From a virus, in IMG/VR virus record IMGVR_UViG_3300025108_000492, positions 1 through 20,318 of that record: DNA of 20,318 nucleotides; one strand, 5' to 3'. Of the stretch, positions 1-20,318 are shown in pieces. The position numbers were made by a program, and so were the translations under genes. Numbering within the stretch: position 1 is the first letter of the stretch; each line of letters starts with the position of its first letter. The notes below the pieces were generated by a model that worked only from the letters and a program-made list of their open reading frames with translations, was not told the origin of the DNA and did no database searches.

Positions 1-859
1 GTGTTATCTCTCTACAGTTGTGAGTAGAGATATAAGTCTCTTTAATGTATTGTGCTTCTTCATAACTAATTGGCAAGTCAAGTGTAACACGTAGATACAT
101 TTTAGGTTTGATAATGTCTTGGTTTGGGTCTAGTAGTTTGCTTAATGTAGTTGTACGATACTTAGGACAGTTCCACCAATTGATGTATTCAGGTTCTTTA
201 TTATTTTCTCTATCAAGTATCATCATGCCACGCTCGTCGTCCCATGCATCTGCATAGTTGTGTGGAAATGCATTACCAATGTAATGAATCTTACCTTGTA
301 CTTGACGTTTATGGAAGTGTCCACTAAACACATAGTCTTGATTTTTAAAATGCGACGGCTTTAGATCACCGTGGTCAGGCATTTTAACAAGTGCATTCAT
401 ATAAAAGCTAGGAAGTTCAAAGTGACCAAACATGTACTTGGCTTTAATCTTTTCTATCTTCTTCCATTCGTCGCCTACTAACCAAGGAACAAGTACTACA
501 TCTTCTTCCTCATATATTCCATCAACAAGTGTTACTCCAGGAATATGTCTACCAAAGATAGTAGAGCTTACATCACGCTTGTCTTTATAGTATAAATCAT
601 GATTGCCAACAAACATATAAAACTTATCAAATGCAGCACCTAGTTTTTCGAGGCATCTTATAGTAGCATCCATAGTTGTAAGGTTAAGACTGTTCCTGTT
701 ATGGTGCCAGTCGCCACAAAATATGCCTGTTTCACAGCCATTAGCTTGTGCTTGTTCGATATACCAGTCTACAAATTCTTCGCAGTCGTCGTTATGTACT
801 TTTGAGTTGCCTTTTAGACCAAAGTGAATATCGGTAAAGACAGCAGCTTTCTTAAACAA
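1..859 (-). CDS. gp47: gp47-like recombination endonuclease subunit (SbcD/Mre11 family), 3' end outside window
   Basis: A minus-strand reading frame of 286 codons runs off the left edge. In order it shows calcineurin-type metallophosphoesterase motifs: TDIHFG near residue 8, CGDWHHNR near residue 50, VGNHDLYYK near residue 85, FGHFEL, SGHFHKR and YIGNAF. These supply the Asp, His and Asn metal ligands of SbcD/Mre11/T4 gp47 nucleases. T4 gp47 is 339 aa, so about 50 residues are probably missing. In T4, gp47 pairs with the ATPase gp46 to resect DNA ends for recombination-dependent replication and host DNA breakdown; gp46 would be expected just left of the window (inference). The start is TTG at 859: an in-frame TAA lies at 881-883, no ATG or GTG lies between it and the DIH motif, and GGAG sits 8 nt upstream. 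It follows gp55 on the same strand with a 48-nt gap, so the two are probably co-transcribed. Confidence 0.88.
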   Translation of the reverse strand, partial: MFKKAAVFTDIHFGLKGNSKVHNDDCEEFVDWYIEQAQANGCETGIFCGDWHHNRNSLNLTTMDATIRCLEKLGAAFDKFYMFVGNHDLYYKDKRDVSSTIFGRHIPGVTLVDGIYEEEDVVLVPWLVGDEWKKIEKIKAKYMFGHFELPSFYMNALVKMPDHGDLKPSHFKNQDYVFSGHFHKRQVQGKIHYIGNAFPHNYADAWDDERGMMILDRENNKEPEYINWWNCPKYRTTTLSKLLDPNQDIIKPKMYLRVTLDLPISYEEAQYIKETYISTHNCREIT

Positions 860-867
860 ATTAGAGT

Positions 868-871
868 CTCC
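868..871 (-). promoter_or_regulatory. Shine-Dalgarno site that decides the TTG start of gp47
   Basis: On the minus strand GGAG lies 8 nt upstream of TTG (859-857). The nearest in-frame ATG downstream falls after the first two metal-binding motifs, so it cannot be the true start. The site therefore supports a non-ATG start. Confidence 0.65.
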
Positions 872-907
872 AGTTTTGTATTATTATACATGAAATTGAT
901 TAAAGTG

Positions 908-1741
908 TCAAGTAGTTTTTTTCTTAGCAGCTTCTTCACGCTTCTGTGCGGCTTCCCACTCCCCAGCATGTTGTCTGGTATAACTTGGATTCATATTATT
1001 CATTTCAAGAATATCGTCTCTAATGTTTTGATTACGCTTTTCTAAGTTGATAACACGCACAAAACTGTTAGTAACCGCGGCTGTATAGTATGCAAACGGA
1101 TTATTAGACTTTGATTCGTCAAATTGCAAACCAATTTGTGATAATTGAAGAATTGCTTGTCCTTTCATCTCATCGTTGTAAGTATAACCACGTACATTGC
1201 CACGTGTAGCATAACGATCAACAAGTTTCATCCACATGCGAGCAAGTTCATTAGTCGCTCTAGCATGTTTTAAACTAAATCCACCGTTTTCCATGCCGCC
1301 TTCCCAGTGACTTTTGCCCACTAATATCAATTCACCATCCTCGTTAAACTTGTAGTGTTGAAAAGGTGGAAAATTAAGTTTAACTTTTGTATCGGCTATT
1401 GTTTTTGGTGTCTTTTTCCGTCCTGGCTCGTCTGGAATATGGTCAAATGTCATTATACGGAAGATTAATTCTTCTTTTGTAATTTTTCTATAGTCAACTT
1501 CGCATTCAGCCTGTTTAACCTTTTCGCCTGCTTTTCTTCTTGCTTCGTAATCAGCAGTTGATAAGCGTTTTGCTTTGTTTCGTTTTGCTTCTGCAATAGT
1601 TCTTATGTTAATTTTATCAACATCTGGTAAAATGATGTCAAATTGGTGGTAGTCAGTATCAATAAAGCTACAAAATCCTGACTTTGATTTATGTATCTGT
1701 TTAAGTAAGTCTTTATTGTTGAGGTAATTCACTTTTCTCAT
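908..1741 (-). CDS. gp55: gp55-like sigma factor for late transcription
   Basis: This 277-aa protein directs RNA polymerase to late promoters in T4-like phages. The N-terminus VNYLNNKDLLKQI matches T4 gp55 (YNYVNNKELLQAI). Residues about 180-235 (GYTYNDEMKGQAI, then QFDESKSNNPFAYYTAAVTN and FVRVINLEKR) match the sigma region 2-like core of T4 gp55 ([20 protein letters not shown]). T4 gp55 is 185 aa. The extra length here is mostly an insertion of roughly 110-125 residues (about 25-150), rich in charged residues, that I do not recognise. The C-terminus (after PSYTRQHAGEWEAAQ) is a Glu/Lys/Ala tail, and the LDFLYE-type sliding-clamp-binding motif of T4 gp55 is not visible. The ATG at 1741 has AGGAG 5 nt upstream. 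A consensus sigma70 promoter precedes it, which fits expression before late genes. It stands first in a leftward pair with gp47, an order also found in T4. Confidence 0.85.
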   Translation of the reverse strand: MRKVNYLNNKDLLKQIHKSKSGFCSFIDTDYHQFDIILPDVDKINIRTIAEAKRNKAKRLSTADYEARRKAGEKVKQAECEVDYRKITKEELIFRIMTFDHIPDEPGRKKTPKTIADTKVKLNFPPFQHYKFNEDGELILVGKSHWEGGMENGGFSLKHARATNELARMWMKLVDRYATRGNVRGYTYNDEMKGQAILQLSQIGLQFDESKSNNPFAYYTAAVTNSFVRVINLEKRNQNIRDDILEMNNMNPSYTRQHAGEWEAAQKREEAAKKKTT

Positions 1742-1765
1742 AGTTTCTCCTGGAGTTATCTATAT

Positions 1766-1794
1766 ATTATAATATACTCTGATAATTTTGTCAA
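1766..1794 (-). promoter_or_regulatory. consensus sigma70 promoter for gp55-gp47
   Basis: On the minus strand TTGACA (1794-1789) is followed by exactly 17 nt and then TATAAT (1771-1766). Both hexamers match the Escherichia coli sigma70 consensus perfectly at optimal spacing. The gp55 ATG lies 24 nt beyond the -10 box, leaving a leader of roughly 15-20 nt with AGGAG. This is what a host-polymerase (early or middle) promoter should look like. Such a full match by chance is unlikely even in AT-rich DNA. Confidence 0.85.
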
Positions 1795-1801
1795 CTAAAT
1801 A
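1795..1801 (+). promoter_or_regulatory. candidate gp55-dependent late promoter CTAAATA upstream of the baseplate operon
   Basis: CTAAATA shares the TAAATA core with the T4 late -10 element TATAAATA. It ends 18 nt before the ATG at 1820, with TAGGAG (1808-1813) in between, implying a start near 1807 and a very short leader. T4 late promoters have no -35 element, and none is seen here on the plus strand. The same heptamer occurs before gp6 at 7475. It abuts the -35 hexamer of the opposing gp55 promoter. Late function is inferred from the resemblance and position. Confidence 0.6.
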
Positions 1802-1819
1802 ATACTATAGGAGATTATT

Positions 1820-2593
1820 ATGCCAAACAACCCATTATCTAGTATTGAAAATTTACAAGGTAGCAATCCGTCATCTGGTAACTCAGTTTCTAGCACTAGC
1901 AACGTTATAATTGATCCTAGTGCAAGGCGCCGAGGCAATTTACCTCCAGGAGCAGTTCCAACAAACGATTTAAATTTCGTTGAAGCTGACTGGGGATCAC
2001 AAACTGATCTTGATTGGAGAGTAAGATTGTCTATGCCTCCAAATTTTCAAAACAGTTCAGTGATGTCGCCGTTATTAGAAACTAACGGATTTATGTTTCC
2101 TTTTACTCCGCAAATTACTATGGAACACACAGCTAACTACAATGCTCTTCATCCTACACATAGTAATTATCCCTTTCCTGCTTATCAGAACAGTCAAGTG
2201 AGTTCTTTAACTATGATTGGAGAATTTTTTGTAGAAAATGCAAAAGAAGCAGAATATTGGGTAGCTGCAACACATTATTTAAGAAGTGTAACTAAAATGG
2301 CATATGGTGCAACTAGCAATCAAGGTTCGCCACCACCAGTAGTAAAGTTAAATGGGTATGGCGACTTTGTATTTAAAGACGTTCCTGTAACAGTAACATA
2401 CTTTACAGTTGATATGCCAAACGATGTAGATTACATTCAGTGTAACGTAGGAGAAAACGGAACATGGGTTCCGGTTAGAAGTCAAGTTAACGTTCAGGTA
2501 CAGCCTACTTACAGTAGAAAAGCGGTAACTAAGTTTAGCTTAGATACATTTGTTTCCGGCGGCTATATTTCAAGCGGTAAAGGATTTATTTAA
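1820..2593 (+). CDS. gp48: gp48-like baseplate tail-tube cap protein
   Basis: A 257-aa protein, first gene of the rightward structural cluster. Residues 1-50 are Ser/Asn-rich and probably flexible. The body has a segment SLTMIGEFFVENAKEAEYWV followed by AATHYLRSVTKMAYG, which recalls T4 gp48 (DLTPRSTEDLMAIINIYQYF then NYFSYG). The end (VQVQPTYSRKAVTKFSLDTF) resembles the closing beta strands of gp48 and gp54 (TFTLEITMREIITLNR). In T4, gp48 (364 aa) and gp54 cap the baseplate hub and nucleate tail-tube assembly. This protein is shorter and the match is by eye, so gp54 or another tube-related protein remains possible. TAGGAG lies 6 nt before the ATG. The stop overlaps the next ATG (TAATG), and gp53 follows. 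Confidence 0.55.
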   Translation: MPNNPLSSIENLQGSNPSSGNSVSSTSNVIIDPSARRRGNLPPGAVPTNDLNFVEADWGSQTDLDWRVRLSMPPNFQNSSVMSPLLETNGFMFPFTPQITMEHTANYNALHPTHSNYPFPAYQNSQVSSLTMIGEFFVENAKEAEYWVAATHYLRSVTKMAYGATSNQGSPPPVVKLNGYGDFVFKDVPVTVTYFTVDMPNDVDYIQCNVGENGTWVPVRSQVNVQVQPTYSRKAVTKFSLDTFVSGGYISSGKGFI

Positions 2594-2898: not shown

Positions 2899-5274
2899 AT
2901 GCCATTTGTACCCGAAGATAGCGGTAATATAATAGTTGGAGACCCAGGAGTTGATGCTGTTGGTAATCGCGGCACTGCGACAGTAAGTGATAGAGATAGT
3001 ACAACTAGTCAAACTATAAACTTTTTACAGAATCCAAGTCTTGCAGGTGCTAGTGCGTTATATGGCGCAGATATTTTTCCTTTTAGAAACGAATTAGATC
3101 AGTTTGCAAGTTATGCTCCAGTTTTTACACTTGGATGTCTTACTAATATTGAATTTAATTTTCCACTAAGTTATAGAACACTTGGACCAGCAGTTAAAAT
3201 AATTAGAAGTGGAGGCGGCGGTGGCCCAACAATACCATCATTGTATGATTTAGACGGTAAACGAGAGTTTTTTATTGAAGATTTAAACATAAAAAATACA
3301 GTTGCACCAAATCCAAAGTCAAGACATTCAAATGCTACTGCAATTAACTTTAAAGTTATTGAACCGTACTCAATGGGTCAATTTTTTCATAACTTAAGAA
3401 GTGCATCATTGGTAACTGGGCATAAAAATTATTTAGAAGCACCATTTTTAATTAGTATTGCATTTATAGGATATGATGATGACGGAAATGTTAAATCTCC
3501 GTTTTTTAGTCAGCGACATTTTCCTATACAAATAGTACAAGCTGAAATGAATGTTTCAGAATCAGGCGCAACTTACGATATTCAAGCAGTTCCGTATACA
3601 GAAAAAGCAATGACTAATCGAGCGCAAAGATTAAAAACAGATGTTGCGATTAAAGGACGTACAGTAGCTGAACTTTTACAAAATGGCCCACAAAGTCTTA
3701 CAGCTGCGTTAAATCAAGTAACTGTTGAACAAAAAGCTGCTCAACAAAGTAGCGGCGACGAATTTGTAATACAATTTCCTAACACAAGTATTCTTGGAGC
3801 ACTTGGCGGAGTAGTAGACGGACTAGCATCAGTTGCAAGTTCAGTAACAGGCTCACTTTCAGGTGTTGGTGGCGCTGTGAATGAATGGTATCAAGGATTA
3901 GTAGGTGGTGATAATTCTCCGCCACCGAGATTATTAGAAAAAGTTTCAGAAAATACGGCTGTGTTTAGTTTAGGAACCCTTATTGGCAATAAATTAAAAG
4001 CACAAGCTGCGGCAGATATTAATGCAATTGGTAGATCTCAATTATTACGCCCCGGAACTCAATATAATTTAGGTAATACTCCTTACCAACTTCCTTCATT
4101 TGCTGAAGATCCAGCCAACCCCGGGTTTCTAAAGCGTAATCTAATAAGTTATAATCCTGGCACATCGGTATATCAGTTTGAACAAGGCTCAAAAATACAA
4201 GATATTATTGAAGAAGTTTTAATTACTTCACAATACGGTAGAGATTTTGCAAGTGCAAACGGAGACTTTTCAGGACGTAGATCGTGGTTTAGAATTGAAC
4301 CTCAAGTATACAATGGTGGCGGGCTATTAGGAGGTTTAATAACTGGAAAATCTCCTAAAACATATGTTTATAGAGTGCGTCCATATAAAACTGACGGATC
4401 AAATTTTTCAGCACCAGGATTTACAGGGTTTAGTAGAACACTTATAAAACAACTATTAACACCGAAAGCATACAGTTACATTTATACAGGGCAAAACAAA
4501 GATATTATTGATTTTGATTTACGGTTTAACATGATGTACTACACTGGTGTGCAAGCCGCAAGAAACCAAAAACAATTAGCATCAGTATTAGGCGGAGCTG
4601 CATTGTTTGGACCAAAAGAAAGAGATGCTATTACAACAACAGGTGCAAATCCAAATATTTTGCCTGCTGGTGATGCAGTAGGCGGCGAAGTAAATGATGA
4701 TGGATCATCTACAGACAACGAACAAGGTGCAAATGGCGGTAATGCTGCTGGTGACGATCCGGAAACTGGAACAGCAAGATATTTTAATGATATGATGATT
4801 AATTCTGGTAACGATTTACTACAAGTTGATTTAAAAATACACGGCGATCCGTATTTTATATCTGATGTTGGAGTAGGAAACTTCTTAGGACTTCCGAGCT
4901 CGCCGTTATTACCAGTAACTATAGATGGTAGTATGAATCCTATGGACGGTGAAGTATATGTTATTTTAAATTTTAGAACACCAATTGATTATGACGAAGA
5001 AGATGGATATGTAAAATATCCGTTAGGTGGGTTTTTACCAGTGTCAATGTTTAGCGGAATATATCAAGTTATTCAAGTTAATAATAGTTTCGATAATGGA
5101 AAATTTGAACAGACACTCCAATTGGCTAGAAAGCGTAATCAAGATATTTCAATTGAAGCAGTTGCTGGAAAAGTAATCAGCTTCTTAATGGGCGGCAAAG
5201 GCAATGCCCAAGAAACTAGCGGCATACCATTTGTTAATAATATTGGAGAAACAGGCGTGGATGAAGGTGTATAA
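2899..5274 (+). CDS. baseplate hub-like structural protein (gp27-position, VrlC-type)
   Basis: A 791-aa protein directly upstream of the gp5 spike gene, where a hub subunit is expected (T4 gp27 is 391 aa). Residues about 124-235 (FFIEDLNIKNTVAPNP, PYSMGQFFHNLR, ISIAFIGYDDDG, FPIQIVQAEMNVSESGATYD) and about 640-750 (LLQVDLKIHGDPYFI, YVILNFRTPIDYDEEDGYVK, FSGIYQVIQVNNSFDNGKFE) look like paired beta-rich domains of contractile-tail hub proteins. There the last motif ends in a TLxLxRK strand (LQLARKRNQ here). A glycine run lies near residue 103. A low-complexity acidic/Asn-Gly linker covers about 591-624. Marine T4-like phages carry a large protein of this kind next to gp5, often labelled VrlC-like. 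The hub role is inferred from position and domain look; direct homology to gp27 is unproven. The ATG follows the gp53 stop without a gap, with AGGA at 2889-2892. The stop overlaps the gp5 start. Confidence 0.6.
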   Translation: MPFVPEDSGNIIVGDPGVDAVGNRGTATVSDRDSTTSQTINFLQNPSLAGASALYGADIFPFRNELDQFASYAPVFTLGCLTNIEFNFPLSYRTLGPAVKIIRSGGGGGPTIPSLYDLDGKREFFIEDLNIKNTVAPNPKSRHSNATAINFKVIEPYSMGQFFHNLRSASLVTGHKNYLEAPFLISIAFIGYDDDGNVKSPFFSQRHFPIQIVQAEMNVSESGATYDIQAVPYTEKAMTNRAQRLKTDVAIKGRTVAELLQNGPQSLTAALNQVTVEQKAAQQSSGDEFVIQFPNTSILGALGGVVDGLASVASSVTGSLSGVGGAVNEWYQGLVGGDNSPPPRLLEKVSENTAVFSLGTLIGNKLKAQAAADINAIGRSQLLRPGTQYNLGNTPYQLPSFAEDPANPGFLKRNLISYNPGTSVYQFEQGSKIQDIIEEVLITSQYGRDFASANGDFSGRRSWFRIEPQVYNGGGLLGGLITGKSPKTYVYRVRPYKTDGSNFSAPGFTGFSRTLIKQLLTPKAYSYIYTGQNKDIIDFDLRFNMMYYTGVQAARNQKQLASVLGGAALFGPKERDAITTTGANPNILPAGDAVGGEVNDDGSSTDNEQGANGGNAAGDDPETGTARYFNDMMINSGNDLLQVDLKIHGDPYFISDVGVGNFLGLPSSPLLPVTIDGSMNPMDGEVYVILNFRTPIDYDEEDGYVKYPLGGFLPVSMFSGIYQVIQVNNSFDNGKFEQTLQLARKRNQDISIEAVAGKVISFLMGGKGNAQETSGIPFVNNIGETGVDEGV

Positions 5275-6996: not shown

Positions 6997-7449
6997 ATGA
7001 GTACATTAGAAAAATCGTTATATCAACAAACTAAAGTAGCAGTAGGATCGAAAAAAGATAACATCTACGTAAAAAGTCCAACCTACAAAGGATTTAGTAC
7101 AGCAGATGATTCTCAATCGAGCAATAAGCTATACGACATTGCATTGATTAAACAGGATATTATAAATCATTTTCATATTAGAAAAGGTGAAAAACTTAGT
7201 GATCCTGAATTTGGAACTATAATATGGGACGTATTATTTGAACCGTTAACTGATCAAACTCGCAATCTTATTATTAAAGATGTTTCAGATATTATAAATT
7301 ATGATCCTCGAGTTTCAGTTAATCAAATTACTGTTGACACATACGAGCATGGTATTCAAGTAGCATGTGAGTTAGTGTACAAACCGTATTCTATTGTTGA
7401 AAAAATACAGTTTCAGTTTGATGAAAACGCTGGATTTTTTACAGGATAA
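6997..7449 (+). CDS. gp25: gp25-like baseplate wedge protein
   Basis: A 150-aa protein; T4 gp25 is 132 aa. The conserved core includes NHFHIRKGEKLSDPEFGTII, WDVLFEPLTDQTRNLI and YDPRVSVNQI. It matches T4 gp25 (RKGSRPFDPEFGCDLSDQLF, ENMTPLTADTV, YEPRIDKLAV), including the DPEFG motif shared by gp25 and the wedge proteins of other contractile systems. Residues 1-45 form a polar N-terminal extension with YKGFSTAD. gp25 binds gp6 and gp53 in the wedge core and contacts the sheath initiator region. AAAGGCG lies 6 nt before the ATG. It starts 13 nt after gp5, so it belongs to the same operon. After it comes a 56-nt gap with a second late-type promoter box. Confidence 0.92.
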   Translation: MSTLEKSLYQQTKVAVGSKKDNIYVKSPTYKGFSTADDSQSSNKLYDIALIKQDIINHFHIRKGEKLSDPEFGTIIWDVLFEPLTDQTRNLIIKDVSDIINYDPRVSVNQITVDTYEHGIQVACELVYKPYSIVEKIQFQFDENAGFFTG

Positions 7450-7474
7450 TTATATACGCGGTTATTTAATACTG

Positions 7475-7481
7475 CTAAATA
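7475..7481 (+). promoter_or_regulatory. candidate late promoter CTAAATA upstream of gp6
   Basis: This is the same heptamer as at 1795-1801, here in the 56-nt gap between gp25 and gp6. It ends 24 nt before the gp6 ATG, with AAGGGA at 7494-7499 as ribosome binding site. A start about 6 nt downstream would give a leader near 19 nt. It would let gp6 and the giant gene be transcribed independently of the upstream genes. No terminator hairpin is visible in the gap, so read-through is also likely. Confidence 0.55.
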
Positions 7482-10500: not shown

Positions 10501-10997
10501 ACAAAGTACTATTTGGTAATAAGGCAACAGAAGATTTGCAAGCTACATTTAAAATTGTAAAAAACAAAGACAAAGTATTAAATGATAACGAAATTAAAAC
10601 ACGTATCATAACAGCAATTAATCAATTTTTTGCTTTAGACAATTGGGATTTTGGAGAACAGTTTTATTTCTCAGAACTTGCAAACTATGTTATGTATCAA
10701 CTTGCTCCAGATGTATCTACATTTATTATTGTACCAAAACAAGAAGAACAAAGTTTTGGTAGCTTATACGAAATTAAAGCAGAAGCTGACGAAATTTTTA
10801 TTAGTGGCGCTGATGTTACTAACATCGAAGTTATAGACGCAGTAACAGCTTCGAGACTCAAAGCACAAAATACAATAACTACACAAGCTGCTTCAGTAAA
10901 TGCTGGAATACAAAGTTCAGCATTAGACGATGCTTCGGCAAGAGTTACATCTACAAACAATGTAATTAATAATACTAACACAGGGACAACTTACTAA
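7506..10997 (+). CDS. gp6: gp6-like baseplate wedge protein, enlarged
   Basis: At 1163 aa this is much longer than T4 gp6 (660 aa). Residues 1-125 hold the conserved start: LSEDWKRVYQSFRNADFQSY, RTMIQYLRDNYPEDYNDY, SSEYLALIDLIAYLGQNIAF, RREVL-like RRESVLRLARLL, YNPKR. FSDGVFGNLPQGTF near residue 343 is the baseplate-J type motif. The C-terminal part (about 1040-1080) has FFALDNWDFGEQFYFSELAN and APDVSTFIIVPK, typical of gp6 dimerisation/wedge-core domains. Between them (roughly 450-950) is inserted beta-rich sequence absent from T4. It includes an Asp-rich loop DADEDGIVDDAD (813-824) that could bind calcium. gp6 forms the inner ring linking wedges and triggers sheath contraction. AAGGGA lies 6 nt before the ATG. 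The TAA stop shares a base with the ATG of the giant gene. Confidence 0.9.
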   Translation: MSSTDRQNRLLLSEDWKRVYQSFRNADFQSYDFDNLRRTMIQYLRDNYPEDYNDYVDSSEYLALIDLIAYLGQNIAFRIDLNARENYMELAERRESVLRLARLLSYNPKRNQATNGLVKLDSIKTTEQVIDSNGNNLQEQTIVWNDVSNPDWYEQFIKVMNTGLPSNSEFGKPNKKELISGISTEQYRFNSINSDIATYQYNKIIDGRNLPFEIVSTDVTNTSIKEEAPFPGNKFALIYKDDGKGVASNSTGFFSHFRQGSLDQGVFTINNPSSNQSIAVEAPDINDTDVWLYKLDSEGNEQELWSKVDALQGNNVVYNSLSKSERNIYSALTRVDDRVTLVFSDGVFGNLPQGTFRVYFRSSQNERIVLTPKDFSNIAVSIPYTSKSGKTEELTLLYSLYYTVDNGATSESTDTIRFNAPSTYYTQNRMVTGEDYQVAPLGINQKIVKVKSVNRTASGISRYFDLIDATGKYSQTTLYGNDGVLYKEYQNKLEGFTFTTKTDVEGATENTIVPLLSDKKLRNFYFDQFPKILTDDLGINWSRTTVETNLVTGLFKSADGIDIKLGSFTSTIMSLLKPGTLIKFIAPTGKHFDKKLNIVDGPSSKIGDLDYKWVKVISVNGTGIEERPDGTGAVYLNDEIPTGALLGEIKPALANNLIGSVKQQVIDQIFVYKTFGLRFDQISGEWRLVTENNLSIGTEFSSGKSGDTTNQQLDASWTLLFENDGERYTITYRGMRYVFESDKEIKFYYDPKEKIYDSKTGKIIKDAITVLNINYKPDDVNAFTRDFDWEIVDAYRDLEGYVDSKKLEISYFDADEDGIVDDADLFEEIVSPTVNVRSKYVIFQKITSVDGVEDFNYLNNDDDAVIILATKSELRPFSEYKDGQVFYYIDTDVFEVLSQTSLKLTISADYKARLGRNNLKFRYYHAASAETRIDPSASNIIDMYILDRTYDANYRIWLLENSIKQPLPPSSDELFISYASELNKIKSLTDEIIYHPVKYKVLFGNKATEDLQATFKIVKNKDKVLNDNEIKTRIITAINQFFALDNWDFGEQFYFSELANYVMYQLAPDVSTFIIVPKQEEQSFGSLYEIKAEADEIFISGADVTNIEVIDAVTASRLKAQNTITTQAASVNAGIQSSALDDASARVTSTNNVINNTNTGTTY
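9942..9977 (+). other. EF-hand/dockerin-like Asp loop within gp6
   Basis: Codons 813-824 of gp6 read DADEDGIVDDAD: Asp at positions 1, 3, 5, 9, 10 and 12, Gly at 6 and a hydrophobic residue at 8. This follows the DxDxDG pattern of EF-hand-type calcium loops, although position 12 is Asp rather than Glu. Calcium binding is inferred only. Confidence 0.45.
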
Positions 10998-13900
10998 TGG
11001 CAAAAAATGACCAAAACGAATTTCCATTGCCAAATGGTTCTAACTCTAATAAAAGAGAAAGTGCTAGACATTTACCAAAGTATTTTAGAACAGATAAAAA
11101 TCAAAAGTTTTTAAAGTCTACATTAGATCAAGTATTACAACCTGGTGTAGCTGAAAAAATTAGTTCATTTGTTGGTAGAAAAACTGCAAAGTCATATGTT
11201 AAAGATGACAACTATTTAAGTGATATATCAGCAGACAGAACTAACTATCAATTAGAACCTGCTAGTATTATACAAGACTCAAATGGAAATGTTGATTACT
11301 ATGCCGATTACCGAGATTACATAAACCAAATTGCTAACTTAGGCGGTTCAAATATTAATCATGGTAGAAATACAAAAGAAGAATTTTATTCTTGGGATCC
11401 AAAAATTGACTGGGACAAATTTAGTAATTTTAGAGAATATTACTGGTTACCAAACGGTCCAAGATCTGTAATTGTACCTGGCGAACAAAAAGAAATTAAA
11501 AGTACATATACAGTTGAGTTAGCAGAAGCGTTAGGCGACTATTCTTATGTTTTTACTCCAGACGGGCTAACTAACAATCCTATACTAAAATTATATAGAG
11601 GTGTAAAATACAGATTTGAAATTAACACTCCTGGGTTACCATTAACATTTAAAACTCAACGAACGTTAGATGATGCATTTTTATTAGTAGACGGAATATC
11701 AGCCCAAAAAGTTGATGAAGGTGTTATTGAATTAGAATTAGGAACAGATGCACCTGATGAGTTATTTTATGTTTCAAATGAAGATATTAATGCTGGTGGA
11801 TTAATTAGAGTAGCAAATCAAAGCGATGCTCAGTTTATTGATGTCGTTGCAGAAATTATTGGTAAGAAAGAATATCAAACAAGAGATAATTGGTCATTAA
11901 CTAACGGATTAAAAGTTAGATTTAGAGGCGATGTGCAGCCAGAAATATATCGAGATAAAGAGTGGTATGTTGAGGGTGTTGGTGAAGAAATTGAATTAAT
12001 ATCATCAGCTGATGTAGAAGTTTCTTTTCCTGTAGGTATTGATGTTGATGTTCCGTTTGATAGTGACGAAGGATTCGATCAGTTTCCTTTCTCACAAGCA
12101 ACAGGATATCCAAGAGATAAAGACTATATTACTATCAATAGAGCAAGTATTGATGGAAATTTTTGGTCAAGATATAACAGATGGTTCCATAAAGATGTAA
12201 TTGAATTAGTAGATACAATTACAAATAATTCTATTGCAGTTGATGAAACTTCTCGTGCAAGTAGACCTATTATTGAATTTGAATCTGGTTTAAGATTGTA
12301 TAACTTTGGATCATTCTCTAAAGGAACTGTTGACTTAATTGACACATTTACGACAGATGCATTTAGCACTATTGAAGGTAGTTTAGGTTATAATATTGAT
12401 GACATACAGTTATCAACAGGCATGCGTGTTATATTCTTAGCAGACACTGATCCACTAGTAACCGGTAAAGTATTTGAAGTAAAACTTATTAATTTCAAAG
12501 GAAGCGGAACAGCCGGACAGATAACTCTAGTCCCAACCACAGACAGTGAGCCGTCTAGCGGTGAAAACATACTTGTAACTCGCGGCACAGAAAACGGCGG
12601 CAAAATTTGGTATTACGACGGTAATGAATGGAGTGTTGCGCAGGAAAAAACGTCAGTAAATCAACCACCAATTTTTGATGTATTTGATGAAAACGATATT
12701 AGTTATTCTAACATAAATGTATATCCTGCATCGTCTTTTAGAGGAAGTAAGATATTTGGGTATAAAGTTGGAACAGGTGCAAACGATACTGCATTAGGAT
12801 TTCCGTTAAGTTATAAAAGTATTGAAAATGTTGGAGACATAGTATTTGATTTTAATTTTAATACAGACACTTTCCAATATCAAACTAATGATACATTAAA
12901 TGTAGTAGATGTTAAACAAGGATTTTTAAGAAAATATAAAGGTAAAAATTTTACAATAGCAAATGTTTATACTAAGGCTAATACATTAAGTGAGCAAAAA
13001 GTTATTCTTCAATATGTAAATGATAACACACGCATTACGTATCCAATTAATTGTTATGATCGAAGTGCCGAGCTTACTGATTTATCTATCACAGTACTAT
13101 GTGATAATGTTATAAAATATGAAAATATTGATTACGAATTTGAAGATAGCGTTGATAAAATTAGAAGTATTAAATTTAAATATGATCTAAAAAAAGATGC
13201 ATCAATTGTTATAAAATGCTGTTCGTCGGCTGTAAAAAATAATAATGGTTATTATGAAATTGCTAATAACCTTGAAAAGAATCCGTTGAATGAAGATTTA
13301 ACTTCATTTACCCTAGGCGAAGTTAACGATCATGTTTTTAGTATAACTGAAAATGTTCCTAATTTTAATGGAATATTTCCTGGGCCGTCTAATTTAAGAG
13401 ATCTAGACGGGTTAAGCAAATACGGAAGAAAGTTTATTAAACATAGTTCGCCGTTAAACTTATCAATGTACAGTCTTATCGATAAGCCGTCAAATATAAT
13501 TAACGCTGTTAGATATTCTAAAAAAGAATATGCTAAATTTAAACGTTTGTTTATTGAAACAGCTGAAAGTATAGGGTATTCAGGAAACGTAAAAGGGCAT
13601 GTTGATAAGATTATTACTGAGCTAGTAAAAAGTAAAACAAATGTTATGCCATTTTACTTTAGCGATATGATACCTTTTGGTACAGCAATTACAACTAAAA
13701 TAATAGTAGAAGATGTAGCAACTCAGTTCTATGCTTTAAATACTAATTTTACACTAGAAACATTAAGCACTCGGGCAGTAACAGTATATTTAAATAGTGA
13801 ACAATTAATACACAATAAAGATTATACATTTAATACTGAAGGCTTTTTAGTAATTACTGCTACTAAGGCTGTTGGTGACATTCTTGAAATAAACGAATAC

Positions 13901-16900
13901 GATACAACTAACGGGTCGTTTATACCACCTACACCAAGTAAGTTAGGTCTATATCCAGCATTTGAACCATATCTATATCAAGATACTTCATTTAGTAGTA
14001 ATCCTACAGTTATTAAAGGACATGACGGAAGCATAGTAAAGGCTTTTGGAGATTATAGAGATGCACTAATTTTAGAATTAGAAAAAAGAATCTTTAATAA
14101 CATTAAAATTAATTACGACCCTACGTTGTTTAATATCCATTCATATGTACCTGGACTTAATCGTAATACTTCGTTTACTAGAAAAGAAATTAATGATCCG
14201 TTAACTACAGATTTTTTACAATGGATGACATTAGTTGATAAAGACTATACTGTTAACTCTTATTTTGATACAGACAATCCGTTTACTTTTAATTATTCAT
14301 TATTGATGGATAAGAATGGAGACAAGTTACCAGGATGGTGGAGAGCAATATACAGATATTACTTTGATACAGATAGCCCGCACTTAACACCGTGGGAAAT
14401 GCTAGGATTTAGTATTAAACCAAACTGGTGGCAAGATCAATATGGTCCTGCACCTTACACAAAAAATAACTCCTTACTTTGGGAGGATTTAGAAAGAGGA
14501 ATAATTAGAGATCCTAGCGGTTCATTTAAAATTAATAAATTATATAAACGTCCTGGATTAAAAACGTTTATTCCAGTTAATGCTTCAGGTGAATTATTAG
14601 GTCCTTCTGATTGCAATATTCCAAAACGATTTGATACACAGTCATTAGATAGAGGATTTGTTTTTGGTGATGGAAGCCCAGTTGAAGATGCATGGGTAAA
14701 CAGTTCAGAATATCCATTTGCAATTTTAACTAGTTGGCTGATTAATAGCACACCATCCGCACTTGCTACTGGATTTGATAGATCAAGACAAGTTCGTAAT
14801 TCTATTGGACACATAGTTTATAAAGATACAAAGAATCATATTAAATTAGAAGACTTATGTTTTCCAACAGGTATTAATGAATCTACACAAAAATTAACAT
14901 CAGGATTTGTAAATTATATACAAGATTATATGTCATACAATCTTGCTGATAGATTTGTTGAATATCAGAATAATATAAAATCAATTAAAAACAAACTTAC
15001 CTTTAAACTAGGCGGATTTACTGATAAATCTAAATTTAAATTAATACTTGATAGTAGAACACCTACAAACGAAGGTAATGTTTTTATACCAGAAGAAAAT
15101 TATCAAGTATTTTTAAATACAAGTACTCCGATAAAAACTATAAATTATAGCGGTGTTATAGTTGAAAAAGTACAAGGCGGATTTTCAATAAGAGGTTATG
15201 ATAGCGAGTTACCCTATTTTAAATACTATCAAGCATTAACATCTTCAAAAGATATCGAAGTTAATGTTGGCGGCGTGTCAGATTCATACATAGAGTGGAA
15301 TGAAAATAGAACCTATGCTAAAGATACTATTATAGAAAATAACGGATCTTATTATAGGACAAATGTTACCTTTACTTCGGGTGACGTATTTGACCCTAGT
15401 CAACCTACAGAGTTAACAAAACTTGCTAAACTTCCTATTACTGGCGGCCGCGATGCAACCTTTAAAAATAGGTTTAATAAAGATAATGTATTAACTTTAT
15501 CGTATGGTACAATCCTTACATCAATACAAGATGTTATTGACTTTTTATTAGGATACGAACATTGGCTAGTTGAACAAGGATTTAGATTCCAATACTTTGA
15601 CGGCACAGAAAATATAATTTCAGACTGGAAAAATGCTTCGAGAGAGTTCTTATTTTGGACAGCACACTCTTGGGGAGAAGGCGCACTTATATCTTTAAGC
15701 CCTGCAGCAGATCAAGTTTGGTTTAATACTGAGTATGCTAAGGTCGATAGTGTAACTGATAATTTCTTTGGGTATGGATTATTAAAATCAGATGGCAAAC
15801 CTTTAGAAAGTAAATTTTTAAAGATTGACAGAATAGATAGAAATAATTTTAAAATAACACCAACTATTACAGCTGACGGAGTTTACTCTATTAAAATTCC
15901 GTTAACACAAACAGAACATGTTGTAATGATTGATAACTCGTCGGTATTTGGTGATGTAGTTTATCAACCAGCTACAGGATATAGACAAGATAGAATAAAA
16001 GCGTTTGGATATCGTACTACTGATTGGAACGGTAGTCTTGACATTCCAGGATTTATATATTCTGAAGTTATTATAAAAGATTGGCAACAATGGACTGATT
16101 ATGCAGTAGGTGATATAGTTAAGTATAAAGAATTTAATTATACAGCTGATGCAGTTATTACAGGATCAGAAACTTTTGATTATAATCAATGGGTACGGTT
16201 AAATGAAACGCCTCAAAGTAAATTAATACCAAACTTTGAATATAAAACAAATCAGTTTGCAGACTTTTATGATCTAGACACAGATAATTTTGATATAGTA
16301 CAGCAACAACAAGCTCAACACCTTATTGGATATCAAAAACGTAAGTATCTTGAAAATATTATTAACGACGAAGTTAGTCAGTACAAATTTTATCAAGGAA
16401 TGATTCAAGAAAAAGGAACTCGTAATAGTCTTGATAAACTGTTTGATGTATTAAGTGCTAATGATAGAGAAAGTTTAGACTTTTATGAAGAATGGGCAAT
16501 TAAACAAGGGCAGTATGGTGCAAGCGAAGGATTTGACGAAGTTGAATTTAAATTAGACGAAAAGAAATTTAGATTAAACCCACAGCCAATACAGTTAACA
16601 AATAGTGATGACGTCGACGGGCTCGTATATAATATTAAAGATTTTGAAGTTTATAAAAAGCCATTAACGTATAATAATAATTTTCTTCCTCCAAAAACAG
16701 ATTTAAAATCATTTACTCGTAGTCCTGGATTTGTTAACTTATCAGATGTAAATGTAGTGTTAGCTGATTATAATAGTATAGCTAATTTAGATATCGAATC
16801 ACTTAGTAATAAAGATTATTTATGGGTTGGATCTAAAGAAAATAAATGGAATGTATTACAGTACGTTGCATTGGATACTACTATTACTTCTATTGAAACC

Positions 16901-19900
16901 TTACAACAAAAAGTTACCGACACTGCGGCAACGTATGAGTTAGAAATAACATTAGATAATTCACCTCCAGGAATTAAAGCTGGCGACATATTAGGTATAT
17001 TTAATATACAAATTAATGACGATGCTGAAGACGGATCTACTGAGACTGAAACTGTTAACACTAAGTTATCACAGTTAAAAGGATTTTACAAAGTCACTAA
17101 AAAGTTACTTAATAAAATTTATTTTGAAAGTGATGTCCAGATTGAAAAAATACCTTCATGTCAAGGATTAGTTACAACTTTTAACTCTGTAAAAGTAAGC
17201 GATTATGTTGAAGCTAATAAGATAGCACAACAAGGCATTGACGAAGGATCGTTAATATGGATTGAAAATAATGAAAATGATTGGAAAGTCTTAAAAAACT
17301 CTCAAGGATTTAATTTATTACAACAAATACCTGCAGAAGAAACTGGCGAAAATAATTATGGCGGATCAATTACAGTTGATAACAGAAACAGTATTATGTC
17401 AGTGTCGTCGCCGATTGCTAGTAATAACGGAAAACTTTTTATATATAGTAGAGGCGGAAACAGTCAAAACTATCAATTTACACAAATAGTAGAACCAGCA
17501 ACAAGTGCATCAGTAGGATCAGGACAACTGTTTGGTACAGGACAAGCTATTAGTGCAGACGGAAAATACTTAGTAGTAGGTGCTCCGGGTGCTTCAAATG
17601 TTAAGTCAAGATACAAAGGTGAATTTGTACCTTCGCAAAATTATGATAACAAAGATATTGTTCAATCCGACGGACTATTATGGGAAGTAGTAGTTGATAT
17701 TCAAGGTGCCCAAGCACAACAACAATTTGGAAGTTTTGGGTCCATAGCAGAAGTATTACAAAATAACAATATTTTTGCAAATGAAGCATTTTTCAAAAAT
17801 ATGTTAACGGGTAATTATCCATTTACTGAATCTGAAGAAGATACACATCCTCAGCACATTCTTGTAAGAGCTCCTGCGGACCAGTATTCAGGAACTACAG
17901 CAGGTGATGTAGTTTATATGGAATGGAACGAATTTACAACAGCAAATCAAGATATATCAAACACAACAGCAAGACTTCCATTTAATAATGAATTCCCTGC
18001 AATTACACAAGAATTTTTAGAATCGGGATTAACTATACAAAAGAAAGTCGATGTAATTTTAGAGATTCCAGTATTGTCAATATTGCCACAGATTGGCGAT
18101 CAAGTTGAAGCAACCGGAGTGTTTGGATATGTAAACTACGTATATGTATCAAATAATAGAGCAGTAATTTATATTGAAAGAACAAATGGTGTTTGGCCTC
18201 TTATTGGACAATTATTTAAGGAATCTGGAGAAGTTGTTGGAGCATTTCAAAGAGCTGCACCTACAGATTCAATTGATGTTGATGCAGAGCTCGGCGGTTA
18301 TTGGTTCTTTAATACCGGCGCTGATATTGAACTTTCTGCAAATAATGTTGATGAAGCTAGAGGCTTAGTAGTTTATAATGTTATACCAACAGGCGAAGTA
18401 GACACAAATGCATTTGGTGCAAATATTTGGAAGTATAATAATACGCAGTCTGGAATTTATGGTTCTAATGCAGATAATAGTTATATAAGAACTCTTACAT
18501 ATCAAGGTACTCCAGGACCAGCAGATAACTTAGATATTATACCAAGTGATTTGTTTATTGTTCGAGCTCCTAAAGCACTAACTGACAATATAGTAGTTGG
18601 TGACGAAATAGGACTAGAAATATTACGCTTTCCAAGTGATGCTGACGGATCCTTTATTGATATTACACCAACAGGGTTAACTTATACTCAAACAAATAAG
18701 AAGCATACGTTGTATGATTTATGGGACGGCTATATTGATTTTGATTTAGACGAAACAAATTCTGTTACTGGCGCACCATTTGAACCTAAAATAGGACAGT
18801 TTGTTAGAGAGCGTACACCTAACCCAGGAGCAACGGCAAAGGTAGTATACTATCAAAAATTTAATAACAGTAAAGCTCGAGTATATGTTACTGATGTATT
18901 AGGCGACTGGGGAGCATTAGGGACAGGTAGAACTATTGAATATATAGGTATTCCGACAGACCCTGATCCAGCATATAACCAAGACCAATTACTTGGCGAT
19001 ATTAATGCAGTGTCATTAGGCGATTTAGTTGCAGATAATTTAGGTATAGGTAAATTATGTGTATTTCAATTAGATGCAGAAATTGAAACAGTGCCTGTTA
19101 ATAGTACAATAATAGGTGCAGAATATATTATATATAAAGATACATTAATTTCAGGACAACCGTTATTAGCTAATCCTCCAAGCTCTATTAACCTTGACTA
19201 CAAACAAGTATTTAAAATACCAGTCAATCCAGATGCTCCTGGAAACAATTTAAATAACTTTGGTTATTTCTCAGTATTCCAAAAAGAAAATGTGTCGTCA
19301 TTTAACCCAATTGATACATTCATACTACCTGATGTAACAGAAAATCTGCGTATAGGTAGTAAGATTAAAATAGCTAAAAGAAATGACTTATATAAAGTTC
19401 TTATAGGAGCACAAGGAAACGGAACAGTTAGTAATCCAGGAAAGATATTCTTTATTAACAAAGGTACCGACGCTGAAGGTATAGTATACGATTGGGAAAC
19501 TTCTAAAGATAAGCGTTACAAAGGTGTGTTTAGCGCATCAACAAATTATATAATTAATGACTATGTTTATTATAGCGGATATTTTTACAAAGCATTAACA
19601 AACATAGCCGGAGACGGAACAACATTCACTGCTACAGAATGGCAATTAGTAAATAACGATCAAATAAGAAGCATTGACTACTTAGGATACATTCCGAATG
19701 ATACAGGAACTATTCCAGAGGATCTTGATTATAAAGGATTCTTTACTCCGCTATCAACGTACATAATAGATGAAATTATACAATATTTTAATGGTAATTT
19801 TTATAAAGCCAAACGTAATATTCCATTAGGATATAACGAATTTGTTGATGTTAACGGAACAATTGAAGTTCCTGCAGAAGATTGGGAATTAATTAGTTTT

Positions 19901-20318
19901 GTACCTGGAGGTGACACTGAGTTAAAACTTGATCAAACAGGGTTAATAGAATTTGGGCGTGACTTTGATATTAGTGACAACGGTGAAGTATTAGTAGTAA
20001 GTGCTAAGTTTAATAATGATATTACTAAAGTTGTTGTATATAGAAATATAAACGATAATTATCAAAAATCACAAGAATTAATTCATCCGTCAGTAGACGA
20101 AACTGACTCACAATTTGGAACATCAATAAGTATCAGCCAAGATGGAAAAATGATAGCTATTGGTGCCCCGTTAGCAGATGACTCAACTAGTACTAATGTT
20201 GGAAAAGTATTTGTTTACACACAAAAAGGTAACACGTTTGTATTAACACAAACATTGTCAAGTGTCAATGAAGTTGATGGAGAATTATTTGGTAAGAAAA
20301 TTGAATTTGACGGCAACT
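10997..20318 (+). CDS. giant baseplate/tail structural protein at the gene 7 position, 3' end outside window
   Basis: Reading from ATG at 10997, no stop occurs through the window end, giving at least 3107 codons; I followed every codon. Conserved-looking blocks in the N-terminal half include WDPKIDWDKFSNFREYYWLP (about 133-152), LKLYRGVKYRFEI (198), NGLKVRFRGDV with YVEGVG (303-328), RYNRWFHKDVIE (about 391), PPTPSKLGLYP (about 977), GHDGS (1008), LPGWWRAIYRYYFDTDSPHL then TPWEMLGF (1111-1138) and FYQGMIQEKGTRNSLDKLFD (1798). I recall such blocks from very large structural proteins of marine T4-like phages; this is from memory, without a search. The C-terminal part has FG-GAP-like, aromatic carbohydrate-binding-like and VRAP modules, listed separately. 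T4 gene 7 (1032 aa) follows gene 6, and the FYQGMIQEKGT helix recalls T4 gp7 FYSTKGIEASYKFLF, but overall similarity is not evident. A peripheral wedge or host-contact role is inferred. It overlaps the gp6 stop (TAATG), with AGGGA at 10982-10986. Confidence 0.8.
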   Translation, partial: MAKNDQNEFPLPNGSNSNKRESARHLPKYFRTDKNQKFLKSTLDQVLQPGVAEKISSFVGRKTAKSYVKDDNYLSDISADRTNYQLEPASIIQDSNGNVDYYADYRDYINQIANLGGSNINHGRNTKEEFYSWDPKIDWDKFSNFREYYWLPNGPRSVIVPGEQKEIKSTYTVELAEALGDYSYVFTPDGLTNNPILKLYRGVKYRFEINTPGLPLTFKTQRTLDDAFLLVDGISAQKVDEGVIELELGTDAPDELFYVSNEDINAGGLIRVANQSDAQFIDVVAEIIGKKEYQTRDNWSLTNGLKVRFRGDVQPEIYRDKEWYVEGVGEEIELISSADVEVSFPVGIDVDVPFDSDEGFDQFPFSQATGYPRDKDYITINRASIDGNFWSRYNRWFHKDVIELVDTITNNSIAVDETSRASRPIIEFESGLRLYNFGSFSKGTVDLIDTFTTDAFSTIEGSLGYNIDDIQLSTGMRVIFLADTDPLVTGKVFEVKLINFKGSGTAGQITLVPTTDSEPSSGENILVTRGTENGGKIWYYDGNEWSVAQEKTSVNQPPIFDVFDENDISYSNINVYPASSFRGSKIFGYKVGTGANDTALGFPLSYKSIENVGDIVFDFNFNTDTFQYQTNDTLNVVDVKQGFLRKYKGKNFTIANVYTKANTLSEQKVILQYVNDNTRITYPINCYDRSAELTDLSITVLCDNVIKYENIDYEFEDSVDKIRSIKFKYDLKKDASIVIKCCSSAVKNNNGYYEIANNLEKNPLNEDLTSFTLGEVNDHVFSITENVPNFNGIFPGPSNLRDLDGLSKYGRKFIKHSSPLNLSMYSLIDKPSNIINAVRYSKKEYAKFKRLFIETAESIGYSGNVKGHVDKIITELVKSKTNVMPFYFSDMIPFGTAITTKIIVEDVATQFYALNTNFTLETLSTRAVTVYLNSEQLIHNKDYTFNTEGFLVITATKAVGDILEINEYDTTNGSFIPPTPSKLGLYPAFEPYLYQDTSFSSNPTVIKGHDGSIVKAFGDYRDALILELEKRIFNNIKINYDPTLFNIHSYVPGLNRNTSFTRKEINDPLTTDFLQWMTLVDKDYTVNSYFDTDNPFTFNYSLLMDKNGDKLPGWWRAIYRYYFDTDSPHLTPWEMLGFSIKPNWWQDQYGPAPYTKNNSLLWEDLERGIIRDPSGSFKINKLYKRPGLKTFIPVNASGELLGPSDCNIPKRFDTQSLDRGFVFGDGSPVEDAWVNSSEYPFAILTSWLINSTPSALATGFDRSRQVRNSIGHIVYKDTKNHIKLEDLCFPTGINESTQKLTSGFVNYIQDYMSYNLADRFVEYQNNIKSIKNKLTFKLGGFTDKSKFKLILDSRTPTNEGNVFIPEENYQVFLNTSTPIKTINYSGVIVEKVQGGFSIRGYDSELPYFKYYQALTSSKDIEVNVGGVSDSYIEWNENRTYAKDTIIENNGSYYRTNVTFTSGDVFDPSQPTELTKLAKLPITGGRDATFKNRFNKDNVLTLSYGTILTSIQDVIDFLLGYEHWLVEQGFRFQYFDGTENIISDWKNASREFLFWTAHSWGEGALISLSPAADQVWFNTEYAKVDSVTDNFFGYGLLKSDGKPLESKFLKIDRIDRNNFKITPTITADGVYSIKIPLTQTEHVVMIDNSSVFGDVVYQPATGYRQDRIKAFGYRTTDWNGSLDIPGFIYSEVIIKDWQQWTDYAVGDIVKYKEFNYTADAVITGSETFDYNQWVRLNETPQSKLIPNFEYKTNQFADFYDLDTDNFDIVQQQQAQHLIGYQKRKYLENIINDEVSQYKFYQGMIQEKGTRNSLDKLFDVLSANDRESLDFYEEWAIKQGQYGASEGFDEVEFKLDEKKFRLNPQPIQLTNSDDVDGLVYNIKDFEVYKKPLTYNNNFLPPKTDLKSFTRSPGFVNLSDVNVVLADYNSIANLDIESLSNKDYLWVGSKENKWNVLQYVALDTTITSIETLQQKVTDTAATYELEITLDNSPPGIKAGDILGIFNIQINDDAEDGSTETETVNTKLSQLKGFYKVTKKLLNKIYFESDVQIEKIPSCQGLVTTFNSVKVSDYVEANKIAQQGIDEGSLIWIENNENDWKVLKNSQGFNLLQQIPAEETGENNYGGSITVDNRNSIMSVSSPIASNNGKLFIYSRGGNSQNYQFTQIVEPATSASVGSGQLFGTGQAISADGKYLVVGAPGASNVKSRYKGEFVPSQNYDNKDIVQSDGLLWEVVVDIQGAQAQQQFGSFGSIAEVLQNNNIFANEAFFKNMLTGNYPFTESEEDTHPQHILVRAPADQYSGTTAGDVVYMEWNEFTTANQDISNTTARLPFNNEFPAITQEFLESGLTIQKKVDVILEIPVLSILPQIGDQVEATGVFGYVNYVYVSNNRAVIYIERTNGVWPLIGQLFKESGEVVGAFQRAAPTDSIDVDAELGGYWFFNTGADIELSANNVDEARGLVVYNVIPTGEVDTNAFGANIWKYNNTQSGIYGSNADNSYIRTLTYQGTPGPADNLDIIPSDLFIVRAPKALTDNIVVGDEIGLEILRFPSDADGSFIDITPTGLTYTQTNKKHTLYDLWDGYIDFDLDETNSVTGAPFEPKIGQFVRERTPNPGATAKVVYYQKFNNSKARVYVTDVLGDWGALGTGRTIEYIGIPTDPDPAYNQDQLLGDINAVSLGDLVADNLGIGKLCVFQLDAEIETVPVNSTIIGAEYIIYKDTLISGQPLLANPPSSINLDYKQVFKIPVNPDAPGNNLNNFGYFSVFQKENVSSFNPIDTFILPDVTENLRIGSKIKIAKRNDLYKVLIGAQGNGTVSNPGKIFFINKGTDAEGIVYDWETSKDKRYKGVFSASTNYIINDYVYYSGYFYKALTNIAGDGTTFTATEWQLVNNDQIRSIDYLGYIPNDTGTIPEDLDYKGFFTPLSTYIIDEIIQYFNGNFYKAKRNIPLGYNEFVDVNGTIEVPAEDWELISFVPGGDTELKLDQTGLIEFGRDFDISDNGEVLVVSAKFNNDITKVVVYRNINDNYQKSQELIHPSVDETDSQFGTSISISQDGKMIAIGAPLADDSTSTNVGKVFVYTQKGNTFVLTQTLSSVNEVDGELFGKKIEFDGN
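15296..15418 (+). repeat. aromatic surface-binding-like module, copy 1 (giant protein residues 1434-1474)
   Basis: The protein segment has W, then YAKDTIIENNGSYYRT, then a Phe-rich tail. Aligned with copies 2-4 it shares Y-x4-[IVY]-[VI]-x5-[YN]-Y. The pattern resembles the small chitin/cellulose-binding CBM5/12 fold (W..Y..GD.V.Y.G..Y.A). Function is inferred. Confidence 0.5.
16082..16201 (+). repeat. aromatic surface-binding-like module, copy 2 (residues 1696-1735)
   Basis: This is the clearest copy: WQQWTDYAVGDIVKYKEFNY, then TADAVITG, F and a closing WVRL. It follows the Y-x2-GD-[IV]-[VI]-x-Y-x4-Y-x-A pattern, with the final Trp 15 residues after the Ala. Binding to sugars or surfaces is inferred from resemblance to CBM5/12-type modules. 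Confidence 0.6.
17339..17596 (+). repeat. FG-GAP-like propeller motifs, cluster A (residues 2115-2200 of giant protein)
   Basis: Two successive blades are visible: YGGSITVDNRNSIMSVSSP, then GKLFIYSRGG, then LFGTGQAISADGKYLVVGAP. The pattern FG-x3-[AS]-[IV]-S-x-DG-x2-[LI]-x-[VI]-GAP is that of FG-GAP repeats found in integrin alpha chains and bacterial adhesins. Only about two blades are seen here, too few for a closed seven-bladed propeller. Confidence 0.65.
17855..17929 (+). repeat. VRAP-x9-GD module, copy 1 (residues 2287-2311)
   Basis: HILVRAPADQYSGTTAGDVV is followed by YMEWN. The spacing between VRAP and GD is exactly nine residues, the same as in copy 2. The module has no name known to me. 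Confidence 0.5.
18551..18631 (+). repeat. VRAP-x9-GD module, copy 2 (residues 2519-2545)
   Basis: LFIVRAPKALTDNIVVGDEI is followed by GLEILRF. It lies about 230 residues after copy 1, with the same VRAP-to-GD spacing and a following beta-strand-like segment, so it probably marks a duplicated beta domain. Confidence 0.5.
19517..19651 (+). repeat. aromatic surface-binding-like module, copy 3 (residues 2841-2885)
   Basis: YKGVFSASTNYIINDYVYYS is followed by GYFYKALTNIAGDGTTF and a closing W. Tyr and Ala positions align with copy 2 without gaps through YxA, and the final Trp is 16 residues after the Ala. Copy 4 follows after about 25 residues and also starts with YKG-F, which suggests a tandem duplication. 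Confidence 0.6.
19727..19894 (+). repeat. aromatic surface-binding-like module, copy 4 (residues 2911-2966)
   Basis: YKGFFTPLSTYIIDEIIQYF is followed by NGNFYKAKRNIPLGY and, after an insertion, EDWELI. It matches copy 3 with a one-residue insertion before FYKA and a longer loop before the last Trp. Confidence 0.58.
19949..20317 (+). repeat. FG-GAP-like propeller motifs, cluster B (residues 2985-3107, continuing past window)
   Basis: Three blades begin here: EFGRDFDISDNGEVLVVSA followed by KVVVYRNIN, then QFGTSISISQDGKMIAIGAP followed by GKVFVYTQKG, then LFGKKIEFDGN at the window edge. The regular alternation of FG...DG...GAP with VYVY strands indicates a propeller that probably continues beyond the window. 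Confidence 0.7.

Follow-up and report, generated by a model that had tools for sequence, protein, structure and literature searches.

Does a phage stop making its late sigma factor once the late structural genes are engaged? The question is raised by IMGVR_UViG_3300025108_000492, a 20-kb virus record whose 20,318 nucleotides we call the window, in which the gene for a gp55-type late sigma factor and a block of tail and baseplate genes diverge from a gap of 78 bp. To our knowledge, little is known outside T4 of how phages shut off their own late sigma factor or subdivide the timing of their late genes. The initial annotation had read the gap as an early/late switch, in which a perfect sigma-70 promoter for gp55 abuts a late box for the structural genes and polymerase bound at one promoter would exclude the other.

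Gene content and promoters of the gp55 spacer

The window is a fragment of a T4-superfamily myovirus (Table 1). Its plus-strand genes from 1820 encode, in order, a structural protein, a baseplate wedge protein, another structural protein, a hub/lysozyme, and a gp25-type wedge protein, followed by a 1,163-aa protein and a very long reading frame. PHROG matches identify the genes behind the late box as virion, baseplate, and tail genes. We take the 1,163-aa protein to be gp6 from its size and its place in the gene order, and not from a family match. An ORF of 3,107 codons at 10997-20317 (plus strand) continues past the end of the window. The cultured phages in the collection whose gp55 is closest are jumbo phages, PA5oct, Phosso, and Atu_ph07 among them, at identities no higher than 47%.

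The minus-strand gene is the late sigma factor gp55, as had been proposed, with strong family matches (Table 1) and a profile match to T4 gp55 (7d7c) at E 3.5e-10 that covers residues 146-237 only. Its AlphaFold model (pLDDT 86.5) aligns to 7d7c with a VIA-align Z of 12.6 (rmsd 3.9, 119 aligned) and a Foldseek E of 0.03. In the model, residues ~22-160 appear as a confidently predicted extra domain before the sigma-2 region, outside the sequence match to T4 gp55; whole-protein searches, which barely test that domain, gave no clear PDB match of its own. Encoded beside the late box, this gp55 homologue is the candidate sigma factor for it.

The promoter sequences are as first described. The early promoter matches the sigma-70 consensus at 12/12 positions, with TTGACA and TATAAT hexamers 17 nt apart, and on the opposite strand CTAAATA directly adjoins the -35 hexamer, with 0 bases between them. 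Exact TTGACA-N15..19-TATAAT occurs at 2 sites in the window, where shuffled sequences average 0.05 and 0/100 shuffles reach two. The second site lies upstream of gp47. It gives gp47 a promoter of its own, and in the same region (857-911, minus strand) gp47 has, by eye, an apparent TTG start codon, seemingly kept in four contigs.

CTAAATA is rarer in the window than expected (3 observed, 8.6 expected), so its presence alone is not significant; its position is. Two of the 3 boxes precede virion genes on the plus strand (starting at 1820 and 7506) by 25 and 31 nt, and the third, at 3430-3436 on the minus strand, lies within the coding region 2899-5274. The box in the gp55 spacer is of the TATAAATA/CTAAATA type, 25 nt upstream of a virion gene, as in T4-type late promoters. 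In five contigs, the regions preceding 464 ORFs contain ATAAATA 43 times in the sense orientation versus 11 antisense, and CTAAATA 13 times versus 3.

Table 1. Features of the gp55 spacer and of related sites in the window.
Feature	Position	Strand	Basis or remark
gp47	2-859	-	
Second full-consensus host promoter, upstream of gp47	883..911	-	Without adjoining CTAAATA; outside the best palindrome matches
gp55, late sigma factor, 277 aa	908..1741	-	PHROG 12791, E 1.9e-78; PHROG 234
Shine-Dalgarno AGGAG for gp55	1747..1751	-	Sequence
Early promoter -10, TATAAT	1766..1771	-	Predicted start near 1759
Degenerate palindrome copy	1768..1787		Dyad centre 1777/1778; 17 nt upstream of late box
Early promoter -35, TTGACA	1789..1794	-	Spacer to -10 of 17 nt
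Late box CTAAATA	1795..1801	+	Predicted start near 1807
Shine-Dalgarno AGGAG for first structural gene	1809..1813	+	Sequence
Virion structural protein, first gene in tail/baseplate block	1820..2593	+	PHROG 12050, E 2e-47
Strong palindrome copy, gp6 late promoter	7448..7467		Score 18.2, best in window; gp6 is the training family
gp6 late box CTAAATA	7475..7481	+	

Conservation of the joint in related phages

Comparison of the spacer in relatives, which had been suggested as a check on the abutment, draws on the 80 closest of at least 600 gp55 relatives in IMG/VR. Leaving out two that were too short (L049, L074), 78 relatives and the window gave 79 spacers, 58 of them distinct. The abutment is exact in 75/79, comprising 72 by best script score and three with a tied promoter match (L029, L032, L080). 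It is not universal: L056 and L070 have the late box without its C, and in L045 and L060 there is no late box at the -35 joint, the early -35 lying 56 and 55 bp, respectively, from the box. The perfect -35 described for the window is likewise not general, with TTGACT replacing TTGACA in 37/79 spacers (34 tallied, together with the same three tied loci, where the script tied on TTAACA and we read TTGACT). The -10 is TATAAT in 77/79 and TATACT in 2, and the hexamers are 17 nt apart in 78/79.

Nineteen contigs (38-169 kb) contain the sequence GTCAACTAAATA exactly once each. Among cultured phages, Atu_ph07 has it once, in the gp55 spacer, and PA5oct once, at a different place; Phosso and RaK2 have none. 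In Atu_ph07 (NC_042013.1, 475384-475395) the sequence precedes a cytidyltransferase gene and, by eye, no clear TATAAT stands at the right distance. Pairwise identity was calculated for 73 loci selected for GTCAACTAAATA, in two bins holding 2,518 of the 2,628 pairs. Because of this selection, identity of 1.00 over its 12 bases is circular and is not counted as evidence. Outside the selected bases, identity is 0.99 for the -10 and 0.90-0.91 for the TTAA of the spacer, while four-fold sites of gp55 average only 0.40 and 0.50 in the same two bins.

A simple explanation for the contact would be compaction, in which two promoters, each conserved for itself, share a short divergent gap and touch without regulatory meaning. 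We regard this as improbable. A parsimony reconstruction on the gp55 tree (77 loci, after exclusion of two more truncated ones) gave 29 length changes in the gp55 leader and 33 in the late leader, both ~20 nt long, against 3 at the joint and a single one in the promoter spacer. Since just 1-2 positions at the joint could take a harmless insertion, 3 changes there are not clearly low, nor fewer than the leaders predict, and the zero spacing alone would be weak evidence of selection on spacing. The size of the gap and the existence of separated arrangements (see below) also fit compaction. The first base of the box does not: at the joint (1795, plus strand) the box is CTAAATA in 75 spacers, lacks its C in 2, and is ATAAATA in 0, yet A is the commoner first base at gp6 (61/81) and upstream of ORFs generally.

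A palindromic element in the late promoters

The gp55 spacer holds a third element that the initial annotation missed, an AT-rich palindrome of ~20 bp with a TRCGYA core, placed between the early -10 and -35, its dyad centre lying 17 nt ahead of the late box. The same palindrome recurs in front of gp6, at a late promoter that faces no divergent gene. The gp6 set comprised the window and 80 of 324 relatives, giving 81 upstream regions, 38 of them distinct. All 81/81 have a late box 26-32 nt before the start (61 ATAAATA, 20 CTAAATA), preceded at a fixed distance by a AATTATATACGCACTTA-like element with a central CG in 36/38 distinct sequences. The palindrome is in fixed register both at gp6 (38 distinct sequences) and at the gp55-spacer promoters (51 distinct).

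A symmetric model of the palindrome was trained on 36/38 distinct gp6 sequences, dropping the 2 without the central CG, and applied to ten contigs totaling 949 kb. It gave 35 matches scoring above 12, of which 33 are intergenic in sequence that is 4.6% intergenic (binomial p 5e-42, ignoring homology between contigs). Many of these matches are the same promoter in different contigs and are therefore not independent. Twenty permuted models averaged 10.3 matches, 0.3 of them intergenic. Seven of the 35 matches are gp6 promoters, the training family; 26 of the other 28 are intergenic, and one of the two coding matches is the gp55 spacer of G004, miscalled by a crude ORF caller. At a loose threshold of 9, match counts in five contigs (6, 5, 4, 5, and 7) resemble those in shuffled sequence (5.6, 4.0, 3.4, 4.4, and 3.0), with 20/27 matches intergenic. 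The signal is carried only by location and by high scores.

The copy in the window's gp55 spacer is weak, with a whole-site score of 4.0, fourth best in the window. Over the 16 columns outside the -10 it scores 3.6, above the 99.9th percentile of random sequence (1.8). Scored over the same columns, 30 distinct gp55 spacers range from -5.1 to 19.2 with a median of 11.9, and 24/30 exceed 1.8 while 6/30 fall below it. At 39 other early promoters of the same contigs, palindrome scores do not exceed -12.0 and their median is -33.9. The palindrome sits inside the core of the early promoter at its fixed 17 nt from the late box, so that the two share bases and are not mere neighbours, which is a second argument against contact through compaction. 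The early promoter of a 115-aa gene (G001 57783, G005 47355) also carries a palindrome and at first seemed a second, independent example; it was dropped, since only 2/18 relatives matched, one of them G001 itself and the other with a different layout.

Register and sign of the palindrome

The distance from dyad to late box takes few values. It is +17 in 14/34 rows (6 gp6, 7 gp55 spacer, 1 tail tube), +4 in 8/34 (6 baseplate hub, 2 others), and -12/-13 in 5/34, with 7/34 elsewhere. Such placement, upstream of, over, or after the late box, is seen more typically with repressors than with activators. It raises the possibility that the palindrome serves as an operator, bound by a phage or host repressor that would silence the early gp55 promoter jointly with the late structural promoter within a tail/baseplate regulon, a reading that we hold to be tenable but rather unlikely. 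The recurrence of sites at gp6, the gp55/structural spacer, the baseplate hub and its divergent virion gene, the tail tube, a radical SAM gene, and several unidentified genes would be in keeping with it. The small number of registers, with +17 shared by three unrelated promoters (gp6, tail tube, gp55 spacer), also fits an activator.

Were such a repressor a late product, late negative feedback on the sigma factor and the tail genes would result. One candidate is a 95-aa protein (starting MSRPKP; L087:8084-8371, relatives L315-L394) whose family has members in at least 600 IMG/VR stretches; among cultured phages, it occurs in 15 records of the PA5oct, Atu_ph07, Phosso, and SCTP-2 kinds. In marine relatives, the late box of its gene is flanked by one or two palindromes; at a score above 10, at least one is present in 69/70 distinct promoters and two in 36, as in autoregulated repressors. 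Against this candidate, the protein has no PHROG or Pfam match and a poor model (pLDDT 63), and in PA5oct, Phosso, Atu_ph07, and SCTP-2 its gene has no good palindrome match (best 4.2). The latter result suggests that the element is a trait of the marine group.

Relatives that hold the promoters apart

The initial annotation had counted well-separated elements in related phages as evidence against a switch, and some relatives do have them. In L045 and L060, the palindrome keeps its 17-nt register to the distant late box and is near-perfect, with scores of 20.7 and 22.9. The element stays with the late box, which indicates that it belongs to the late side and that the early promoter has been laid over it. 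The region before this distant box resembles the gp55 promoter spacer of other phages. L045 and L060 form one clade and so count as one event, and the deeper tree nodes around them are weakly supported.

In the PA5oct-like group, the early -35 and the late box are ~35 nt apart in 27 distinct sequences, drawn from 31 of 48 loci and scored for the -35 and the box. Together with L045 and L060, this group indicates that the overlap is dispensable. In the PA5oct-like gp55 spacers (L124-L168), the late box is preceded at a similar position by another conserved inverted repeat, ATAAA-N8-TTTAT, and the interval separating the early promoter from the late one also contains a conserved TTTC-like stretch. 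By eye, GATAAATAAG sites from other places in this group are without the ATAAA-N8-TTTAT repeat. In RaK2-like phages, the late box appears by eye to lie a few nt from a weak -35.

A possible switch from early to late transcription

The order of elements at the gp55 spacer is interlocked: host sigma-70 -10, palindrome, sigma-70 -35, late box. With the early -10 set at -12 to -7 and the late box at -12 to -6, the predicted starts (Table 1) are 48 bp apart. The footprint of a bacterial polymerase reaches from about -40, or beyond, to +20; the two complexes would therefore share ~30 bp, and two polymerases should clash. The early and late promoters of this spacer therefore probably cannot fire simultaneously, and occupancy of the late side should block gp55 synthesis. 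The sharing of bases between the early promoter and the palindrome would lock the joint.

Early in infection, host polymerase would use the minus-strand promoter and gp55 would be made. Active gp55-polymerase would then use CTAAATA to transcribe the tail and baseplate block, and with the late side occupied, by this polymerase or by a palindrome binder, the gp55 promoter would be physically blocked. Conversely, the late box would be blocked while the early promoter is occupied. The palindrome tells against exclusion by polymerase alone, in that a factor bound there might silence gp55 with no polymerase involved, or silence both promoters; one that activates the late side would make a true switch. 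Our best explanation, to which we give a probability of about 0.55, is that the gp55 promoter is excluded once the late side is occupied, whether by late polymerase or by a factor bound to the palindrome. Against it, early promoters may have been closed in some other way before late transcription sets in, as in T4. The sequences, their conservation and registers, and the pairing of the palindrome with the late promoter are observed directly; promoter activity, exclusion, and feedback on gp55, like the identity and sign of the palindrome factor, are what we infer from the arrangement of these sequences.

A broader proposal, which we offer tentatively, is that the late promoters are of a two-part kind, in which palindromes at a few fixed registers and a putative factor that reads them define a tail/baseplate sub-regulon, and that embedding one at gp55 would switch off the regulon's own sigma factor. 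If exclusion of the gp55 promoter by late-side occupancy is correct, engaging the late structural operon would directly stop synthesis of its own sigma factor.

Comparison with known systems

Like T4, this phage combines a gp55-family sigma factor with a TATAAATA-type late box just upstream of virion genes (PMC2988020, PMC7892883). T4 late promoters are described as having no sequence conservation at the -35 position (PMC2988020), where the gp6 and gp55-spacer late promoters here, unlike those of T4, carry a palindrome in fixed register. The late promoters described here are for that reason a variant of the T4 type. In the T4 late complex, the upstream end is occupied by the sliding clamp (PMC7892883). 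The late promoters of Aeromonas phage Aeh1 have the same box, CTAAATA, from -12 of the putative start, and in the excerpted account the box is described without an early promoter or palindrome (PMC1524935).

Divergent promoters that interfere with each other are known from bacteria. At E. coli bidirectional promoters, polymerases cannot bind both ways, activated transcription in one direction can repress the other, and a regulator bound over the core can block the divergent start, as SoxR binding does at PsoxS/soxR (PMC12825309). A putative factor bound at the palindrome could block gp55 directly in the same way. Other findings of that study weigh against exclusion: basal activity at its five E. 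coli promoters was too low for polymerase competition, weak promoters do not compete, and direct polymerase clashes leave separate divergent promoters unaffected (PMC12825309). The E. coli class (Warman et al.) has a shared symmetrical -10 and starts commonly 10, 18, or 23 bp apart, most often 18 (PMC12825309); the gp55 spacer falls outside it, having separate elements, predicted starts 48 bp apart, and different sigma factors. Plasmid pLS20 likewise has overlapping divergent promoters in a genetic switch, which serves conjugation genes of a Gram-positive plasmid, in contrast to the succession of sigma factors in a phage here (PMC4207663). Within the literature searched, largely outside subscription journals, the titles and abstract openings listed describe no such early/late arrangement.

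Conserved in the uncultured marine relatives that we examined, a stretch of ~40 bp at this locus combines the early promoter and the late box with a late-promoter element of a new kind. A single small DNA fragment thus suffices for tests of succession, exclusion, and feedback, and the palindrome provides a handle for finding a missing transcription factor. We know of no T4 counterpart in which gene 55 is divergent from a late operon in such a manner. The gp55-type late box and the sigma-70 promoter are both known elements; the departures from T4 are the upstream element of the late promoter and the extra domain of gp55, which has 277 aa here and 185 aa in T4.
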